Shown here piece after piece: positions 6,988-56,308 of a DNA stretch of 64,000 nucleotides. The stretch lies in contig NZ_JACHIJ010000006.1 in the NCBI RefSeq assembly GCF_014203115.1, forward strand, positions 248,001 through 312,000, in the 5' to 3' direction. Below the pieces are notes generated by a model. It was not told the origin of the DNA. It saw only the letters and a list, made by a program, of their open reading frames with translations, and did no database searches. Position 1 is the first letter of the stretch, and each line of letters opens with the position of its first letter. The stretch comes from Afipia massiliensis. GTDB taxonomy: Bacteria; Pseudomonadota; Alphaproteobacteria; Rhizobiales; Xanthobacteraceae. The translations under genes were made by a program, and so were the position numbers.

Positions 6988-7115
6988 TCGTCATGGCCGG
7001 GCATAGCCGTTCGAAGAACGGCGTCGCTTCCGCTCGCCTATGTCCCGGCCATCCACGTCTTTTCTTGAGATATACAGGCAAGACGTGGATCACCGGGACA
7101 AGCCCGGTGATGACG
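6988..7115. repeat. Intergenic palindromic repeat, family B copy 1
   Basis: It begins GTTCGTCATGGCCGGG, contains CCCGGCCATCCACGTCTT in the middle, and closes with AAGACGTGGATCACCGGG and CCCGGTGATGAC. It consists of two nested GC-rich hairpins joined by a CGTCTT/AAGACG pairing. Further copies lie at 7836-7928 and 23900-24030. Confidence 0.7.
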
Positions 7116-7675: not shown

Positions 7676-7811
7676 CGTCGTCCCCGCGAAAGCGGGGACC
7701 CATACTCCCTAAGCCATCGATGTGGTGGAGATGCTGGAGCGATCTTCTCGCTTTTGCCACGACGCTCAGTGGTTTGGGTCCCCGCTTTCGCGGGGACGAC
7801 ATTGCATGTGT
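7676..7811. repeat. Bipartite intergenic inverted repeat, family A copy 2
   Basis: The left hairpin is CGTCGTCCCCGCGAAAGCGG followed by GGACCCATACTCCCTAAG. The right hairpin is GTCCCCGCTTTCGCGGGGAC near 7778-7797. Each half is itself a hairpin, and the two halves are complementary to each other. The conserved flanks match copy 1. Confidence 0.75.
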
Positions 7812-13962: not shown

Positions 13963-13998
13963 CCGGCGTTTCCGCACGGCTTTTATCCCCCGGCAGAT

Positions 13999-14073
13999 CC
14001 AGTGTCCCGTATCCGACGTTCGCTTCACTCTGCAGCAATTTCCGAGCGAACGTCGGATACGAAGGGACACTGG
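13999..14073. repeat. Long bulged hairpin 1 of a related pair
   Basis: An inverted repeat made of a perfect 10-bp outer stem (13999-14008 with 14064-14073) and a perfect 16-bp inner stem (14009-14024 with 14045-14060). A 3-nt bulge, GAA (14061-14063), interrupts the 3' arm, and the loop is 20 nt. The layout is identical to hairpin 2 in mirror image. There is no U-run, so it is not a standard terminator. Confidence 0.9.
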
Positions 14074-14086
14074 CAAACTATTGGTT

Positions 14087-14163
14087 CTAGTGATCCTTTG
14101 GTTCTGCCATTCGTAAAGGTGCCTGCTAAAGATATGGTACGAATGGCAGAACCGGATCACTAG
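14087..14163. repeat. Long bulged hairpin 2 of a related pair
   Basis: The outer stem is 10 bp, CTAGTGATCC (14087-14096) with GGATCACTAG (14154-14163). The 3-nt bulge TTT (14097-14099) is in the 5' arm. The inner stem is 16 bp (14100-14115 with 14138-14153) around a 22-nt loop. It lies 13 nt after hairpin 1 and 64 bp before the ferredoxin start. It aligns with the reverse of hairpin 1 at 18 of 29 arm positions, and every differing paired position is compensated. Confidence 0.9.
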
Positions 14164-14227
14164 CATCTGGCGGATTGACCCGTTATAGGACTGCTCAATC
14201 TGAATTATCCGGGCAGCACGACAAATC

Positions 14228-55436: not shown

Positions 55437-56204
55437 TTATGCCGGAACGTCGGCGAGTATCTGGATTGCGTTTTTGCGAAGGTCGTTCTGCTGCTGCATC
55501 AGCGACGAGACCGACTGGTAGGTGCGCATGACTTCCATCATGCGGGTCATCTCGGCGACCGCACTGACGTTGGACTTTTCAACGAAACCCTGATTGACGC
55601 GCGAGGCGAGGTCAGGCTGCGCGGCGATTCCGGCGGGCGCCGAGTAAAGGTTCGCGCCTTCCTTCTTGAGCTGCTGCGGACTGTCGAACTTCACGAGCTT
55701 GAGCTTGCCGCGGATGGAGTCGAACTGGGTCACGACGCCTTCGCCCACGGTGATCGTGCCGTCGCTCGAGATCGCGATGTCGCGGTCGGTCGGCTGGAAC
55801 ACGATCGGGCCGTTGGTGCCGAGCACGATGTTGCCGCCGGTGGTCACGAGCTGGCCCTGGGCGTTGATCTGGAACGAACCGTCGCGGGTGTAGCGTTCGC
55901 CGGCCGGCGTCTGGACGGCAATGAAGCCCTTGCCGTCGATGGAGACGTCGAGCGGGCTGCCGGTCTTCTCCGAGGGGCCCTGTGAGAAATCGTGATAGGC
56001 GGCGCGGTCATGGACGAAGCTGACGCGGCGGTCGCGGACCGAGAAGTTGTCCTCGCGCGCGCCCGTGTTCAGGAATTCCTCGAACAGCGACTTGTTGGCC
56101 TTGAAACCGGTGGTGTTGACGTTGGCCACGTTGTTGGCAATGACGTCGATCTGCCGCTCAAGCGACATCTGCCGCGATAATGCGACGAGAAGCGTATTCT
56201 CCAT
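55437..56204 (-). CDS. flgF: Proximal/distal rod protein FlgF
   Basis: A 255-residue rod protein. The N-terminal block is MENTLLVALSRQMSLERQID with VIANNVANVNTTGFKANK. The C-terminal block is NVSAVAEMTRMMEVMRTYQS with MQQQNDLRKNAIQILADVPA. ATG 56204 has GGGGAG upstream. The frame's 14-codon extension is not needed. First gene of flgF-flgG-flgA-flgH behind a sigma-54 promoter. Confidence 0.95.
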   Translation of the reverse strand: MENTLLVALSRQMSLERQIDVIANNVANVNTTGFKANKSLFEEFLNTGAREDNFSVRDRRVSFVHDRAAYHDFSQGPSEKTGSPLDVSIDGKGFIAVQTPAGERYTRDGSFQINAQGQLVTTGGNIVLGTNGPIVFQPTDRDIAISSDGTITVGEGVVTQFDSIRGKLKLVKFDSPQQLKKEGANLYSAPAGIAAQPDLASRVNQGFVEKSNVSAVAEMTRMMEVMRTYQSVSSLMQQQNDLRKNAIQILADVPA

Positions 56205-56308
56205 CGGCCAGTCTCCCCTTGTTGAACCGCGGCCTGCCTCTCCCAAGGCCTGACGCGGATCGTGCGAACCGGTGAAGCTCTCCCAAGCCGTCGGTTCGCC
56301 ATCTACAA

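Follow-up and report, generated by a model that had tools for sequence, protein, structure and literature searches.

In the parts of PMC3116915 and PMC8266576 that deal with them, REPINs and BIMEs are intergenic elements whose unit is an inverted doublet of palindromes with compensatory changes and a bulge in the stem, and RAYTs are regarded as the movers of REPINs. High-copy palindromes that include heterodimers are also found in the GTAG/CGTC families, which according to the portion of PMC3733652 that covers them extend to Bradyrhizobium and Rhodopseudomonas. For Bradyrhizobium and its relatives, the intergenic repeats Br-REP1 and Br-REP2 have been described, and the pertinent sections of the same paper mention an undescribed larger repeat of Afipia, with the data not shown (PMC5082802). 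The element that is the subject of this study shares with REPINs and BIMEs the inverted doublet as unit, the intergenic location, the compensatory changes and the stem bulge, with the GTAG/CGTC families the high copy number and the heterodimers, and with Br-REP1 and Br-REP2 the intergenic location and the occurrence in Bradyrhizobium and relatives.

The locus is part of a window of 64,000 nucleotides from Afipia massiliensis (the whole stretch of DNA that was analysed; contig NZ_JACHIJ010000006.1, positions 248,001 to 312,000). Judging from sequence comparison, positions 13999 to 14163 are very probably one copy of a non-autonomous mobile doublet of 160-170 bp, made of two unlike, inverted and bulged hairpins, that propagates between genes in Afipia and in further genera of the family. 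The doublet, which was delimited by sequence, folding, BLAST copies and a hairpin scan and has no assigned strand, consists of three parts: Hairpin 1 (13999 to 14073, plus strand) has the foot CCAGTGTCCC, a 10-bp outer stem, a 3-nt bulge on the 3' arm, a 16-bp inner stem and a 20-nt loop; an A+T-rich linker of 13 nt follows (14074 to 14086, no strand); and hairpin 2 (14087 to 14163, minus strand) has the foot CTAGTGATCC, an outer stem of 10 bp, a TTT bulge on the 5' arm, an inner stem of 16 bp and a 22-nt loop. Apart from the one bulge each, the stems are completely paired. The analysis of the outer words showed that the left outer tetranucleotide CCAG (13999 to 14002) pairs with an inner CTGG, and the right one, CTAG (14160 to 14163), with an inner CTAG. 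The region from 13980 to 14180 folds with -103 kcal/mol; 200 dinucleotide shuffles averaged -55.91 (sd 4.31), and none of them was as stable (z -10.93). The preliminary description had reported two bulged hairpins of this plan 13 nt apart with bulges on opposite arms, the absence of a U-run, and a position between hpt and a ferredoxin gene; sequence and folding bear out all of this, and the flanking genes match the Hpt domain (PF01627) and the 2Fe-2S ferredoxin domain (PF00111). The element adjoins the stretch GGATTGACCCGTTATAGGACTGC (14172 to 14194), which lies upstream of the ferredoxin gene and is strongly conserved across the aligned Afipia rows.

Further copies do exist, as the idea of a mobile palindrome demands. 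With positions 13985 to 14180 as the query, BLAST returned 68 matches in the A. massiliensis genome at E values up to 10, and the first 25 of them (L001-L025) span at least 104 bases of the query each, which means 25 copies with matches that exceed 100 of the roughly 165 bp; when oriented, they share common ends near CTAGTG...CACTAG. A scan for hairpins identified 35 doublets of several sequence families in 2.0 of the 5.3 Mb of this genome. In 800 kb, 50 hairpins of at least 19 bp were counted, as compared to none in one order-3 Markov control, and 13 of the 50, mostly of another family, lie outside called pairs. Matches at E values up to 0.001 were present in 27 of 61 genomes (this one and 60 relatives) and in three of 33 genera. 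A scan of named contigs with a pattern gave 91 stretches, and among the 80 stretches listed about half carry the label Afipia and about a third Bradyrhizobium, as counted by eye. The genomes of the GTDB family were scanned with a strict pattern of three CTAG feet, which 121 of 391 genomes and 28 of 47 genera contain. Low counts of this pattern mean little because its reversed form yields up to four matches per genome; at least five forward matches were found in 54 genomes, and the highest forward counts were 351 (G094) and 296 (G028). In a plasmid and a phage collection, the focal copy had no counterpart at E values up to 1, and we therefore reject the idea of a plasmid- or phage-borne element.

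The two hairpins had been regarded as twin copies. It is true that hairpin 1, when reverse-complemented, aligns with hairpin 2, and thus hairpin 2 resembles hairpin 1 when the opposite strand is read; the unit, however, is the doublet, and its two hairpins come from different sequence families. When 35 doublets were typed by their feet, 13 were of the pairing TCC-TGG, eight each of ATC-TCC and GAG-GTC, two of GTC-TCC and one each of four others, three of these singletons being incompletely typed because the start was displaced or the foot word was a different one. No pair of two hairpins of the same family was found among the 35 doublets, three of which were not typed in full, and when the hairpins within each doublet are compared, their identity is 0.64 in the median and 0.74 at most. 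The architecture is uniform: The hairpins are 10-16 nt apart in 33 of the 35 doublets, they are about 75 nt long with stems of about 26 bp and paired, CTAG-like foot words, and wherever a bulge was called, in 65 of the 70 hairpins, it sits on the inner arm. Profile searches in the 2.0 Mb and in the loci of the pattern scan, which may overlap, gave 352 hits that form 167 adjacent pairs and 25 orphans, some of these at the ends of loci. In 400 kb of G028, the most loaded Afipia genome, 127 profile hits included 13 orphans, and 27 pairs were called among 81 hairpins of 60-95 nt, 29 of which were unpaired, some of the called pairs being part of longer arrays with other bulge orders. One single hairpin of this genome (L387, 19076-19150; G028:C1 3299076-3299150) has arms that resemble the outer arms of two different families, and may have arisen from a doublet by deletion. 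The window also contains inverted repeats of other families at 7041-7100 and 7677-7800, and long CGTC-type hairpins similar to CGTCATGGCCGG occur elsewhere in the A. massiliensis genome.

The pattern of changes in the stems speaks to the question of what keeps them paired. We counted covariation on copies found by BLAST because the hairpin scan favours well-paired copies. In 25 of the first 28 BLAST places (L001-L025 minus L019, plus L027; L019, L026 and L028 were left out), 98.2% of the cells are paired and 26 of 52 pairs are changed on both sides; none of 500 shuffles reached these values, and slid controls gave at most six pairs. As dispersed copies diverge, a comparison shows more and more compensated changes (from 1.7 up to 11), whereas the number of single changes stays at 1.6-2.0; in the closest class, in which less than 20% of the unpaired positions differ, 17 comparisons gave 27 single and 29 compensated changes. 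In contrast, 39 comparisons of copies at the same site gave 200 single, 42 compensated and 23 other double changes, and 157, 16 and 14, respectively, if the four comparisons with very different flanks are omitted. Both sets of comparisons share sequences and do not represent independent events. Pairing that is kept during propagation and decays at rest is expected of a mobile element rather than of a resident RNA, and this seems to be the case here. Of the two candidates proposed earlier, a mobile palindrome that diverges while it keeps pairing is thus favoured by the many copies, by their presence or absence at orthologous sites and by the compensation among dispersed copies. A contrast of this kind between dispersed and same-site copies can help to separate mobile palindromes from structured RNAs in general.

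The second of these candidates, a structured RNA or an element of mRNA ends that functions at each site, could draw on the very strong folding and on the observation that other REPs at 3' ends are transcribed in Bradyrhizobium, as reported in the relevant part of PMC5082802. We consider it highly improbable, since same-site copies gain mainly uncompensated stem changes and there is no excess of G.U pairs: The ratio of G.U to A.C mismatches is 5:4 in the orientation of the element, 2:2 in that of the genes and 7:12 in A2. On the arbitrary contig strand, this ratio is 8:1. The doublets were also mapped relative to genes, as had been suggested before. None of the 35 doublets lies inside a gene predicted by a custom Markov gene finder, with predicted genes being dropped if an element took up more than 30% of their length, and some doublets reach 4-33 nt into the end of a predicted gene. 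Twenty-two doublets are located between tandem, 11 between divergent and two between convergent genes, and about 19.7, 10.1 and 5.2 would be expected from the intergenic length, a distribution that also speaks against such an RNA. We do not claim an avoidance of convergent genes based on two as compared to about 5.2 cases; a function as transcription terminator was rejected given the missing U-run and these two convergent cases. In Rfam, no family reached the gathering score at the focal site, and a permissive search returned 11 sub-threshold matches (ten miRNA families and one Hac1/Xbp1 intron family), so that a known Rfam RNA was rejected, too. Elsewhere in the window, a flg-Rhizobiales RNA (RF01736) is present at 56159-56298 on the minus strand with 113.4 bits.

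For the mobile doublet, the empty sites of relatives give an impression of how it may insert. At the focal site, 16 of the 29 genomes of the genus could be aligned, and 13 of these rows are short and lack the doublet, which led us to reject the idea that the feature is fixed in the genus; the site is filled in A. massiliensis and in G020. The short sites end in CTGG- or CTAG-like words at the right outer position, and some of them could be deletions, as the rows L063 and L066 end in words that resemble the right end of the element. In G028, hairpins of other families are present beside the same conserved stretch between hpt and the ferredoxin gene (L072), suggesting repeated insertion there. 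On a larger scale, the joined flanks of 33 elements of A. massiliensis were compared to nine relatives (12 elements) or four relatives (21 elements), and an aligned empty site was obtained for 24 of the 33 elements. Measured against the flanks left beside the element, the excess at the empty site is 4 nt in nine of these 24 cases, 5 nt in four, 1, 2, 3 and 6 nt in two cases each, and -11, -3 and +23 nt once each. Clear examples of empty words are C7:19042 (CCAG), C7:75829 (AACG) and C1:139020 (TTAA), and for C2:41139 the empty word is TCAG, CTAG or TTAG, depending on the genome. Among the 33 of 35 elements that were placed by the foot finder, some of them with wrong feet, 18 have equal outer words on both sides.

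The footprint may be read in two ways. The excess of 4 nt is what a 4-bp target duplication predicts, and the doublet might be a MITE of a DDE transposase that duplicates CTAG-like sites, with ends TG...CA and with outer words that were subsequently changed so as to pair with their inner counterparts; such a change is possible. A mover of the IS5/IS427 type is a candidate for such a MITE. In good agreement, the left outer CCAG of L417 (G018), which is unpaired with the inner CTAG, is identical to the word that G013 has at its empty site, and the right outer CTGG of L396 is likewise the word at the empty site of G020. However, all 18 equal outer words are CTAG even though several empty sites read TCAG, CCAG or CCCG instead. 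Moreover, a search for partners of the IS5/IS427 type (PF13340) gave only four matches in total in A. massiliensis, G028 and G018, with one over the cut-off each in A. massiliensis and G028, and none in G013, and no autonomous copy, i. e. no longer relative with a gene between two such hairpins, was detected in 2.0 Mb of A. massiliensis and 0.4 Mb of G028. When ends were compared in G028, the best match (18 of 18 bases after the foot, 2.3 kb apart) fell on hairpins that belong to different doublets, and the genes between them look ordinary. A DDE-type MITE is thus conceivable, if rather doubtful. Conversely, CTAG on both sides of many filled sites suggests that the target word is replaced at insertion. 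According to this second possibility, which we put forward only tentatively, the doublets would be RAYT-independent transposons whose enzyme reads the folded single strand and, on either side, swaps a CTAG-like target word for the CTAG of the element, the target thereby being lost instead of duplicated, and they would have reached hundreds of copies in some genomes of one family. The outer words of L417 and L396 make the replacement less likely because they resemble the target word. By eye, 21 of 35 same-site copies agree with A. massiliensis in both outer words, and 14 differ, one of them (L431) due to misalignment.

As to the mover of the non-autonomous doublet, an enzyme acting in trans might recognise the folded single strand, which is perhaps exposed during replication, by its paired foot CTAG-TG, the A-rich bulge on the inner arm and the conserved stem words, and might move or copy the doublet into a CTAG-like tetranucleotide. 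The hairpins of a pair may stay unlike because a pair from the same family would form a long and unstable palindrome. Small palindromic repeats abound in bacteria, and the mover investigated in the consulted papers is the Y1 RAYT. A classical REPIN, i. e. a REP doublet moved by such a RAYT that was lost here or missed by the search, would account for the inverted doublet as propagating unit, the compensatory changes and the intergenic spread, all of them traits that are described in the corresponding part of PMC3116915. Y1_Tnp matches are indeed present in three of 29 genomes of the genus and in six of 13 chosen genomes, including the high-copy genomes G094, G103 and G356, and a diverged transposase could escape the PF01797 search. 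Nevertheless, this domain was not detected in A. massiliensis nor in seven of the 13 chosen carriers (G028 with its 296 forward matches, G013, G018, G002, G118, G196 and G193), and no hairpin of this kind lies within about 1.5 kb on each side of the Y1_Tnp genes of L088 and L089 (G004 and G020). In addition, the unpaired GTAG or CGTC tag is missing, and the stems have about 26 bp as compared to 6-13 bp in the GTAG families (PMC3733652, in the part that describes them). A classical REPIN is therefore unlikely. The abundance of the doublet family where no Y1 transposase is detected points to another mover, and since the doublets are polymorphic between close relatives, their movement can be tested.

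Our best reading is an element that is REPIN-like, yet outside the REP/RAYT system as it is defined, because the GTAG/CGTC tags and the short stems are missing and the searches in A. massiliensis and in the Afipia genome with the highest load detected no Y1 transposase. Our searches of the open-licence literature yielded no description of this element. By description only, it may be likened to the RIME elements of Rhizobium, which are intergenic and contain two large palindromes. The same holds true for QMITE2 of Coxiella, a palindromic miniature element with matches of 83-100 nt in Bradyrhizobium, as far as the consulted part of PMC5896051 describes it. Against 33 elements, the best scores of the Br-REP1 and Br-REP2 consensus were similar to those of shuffled sequences (16 vs. 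18 and 24 vs. 20). The terms CTAG, Afipia and Nitrobacter are absent from the main text of PMC3733652, and in contrast to the GTAG/CGTC families described there, the Afipia element carries no such tag and has longer stems. Finally, it differs from REPINs and BIMEs in that a Y1 transposase remained undetected in its own genome and in several carriers, in the size of its stems (about 26 bp) and hairpins (about 75 nt), in a CTAG foot that is paired whereas the GTAG of REPINs is unpaired, and in the origin of the two hairpins of each pair from different families.
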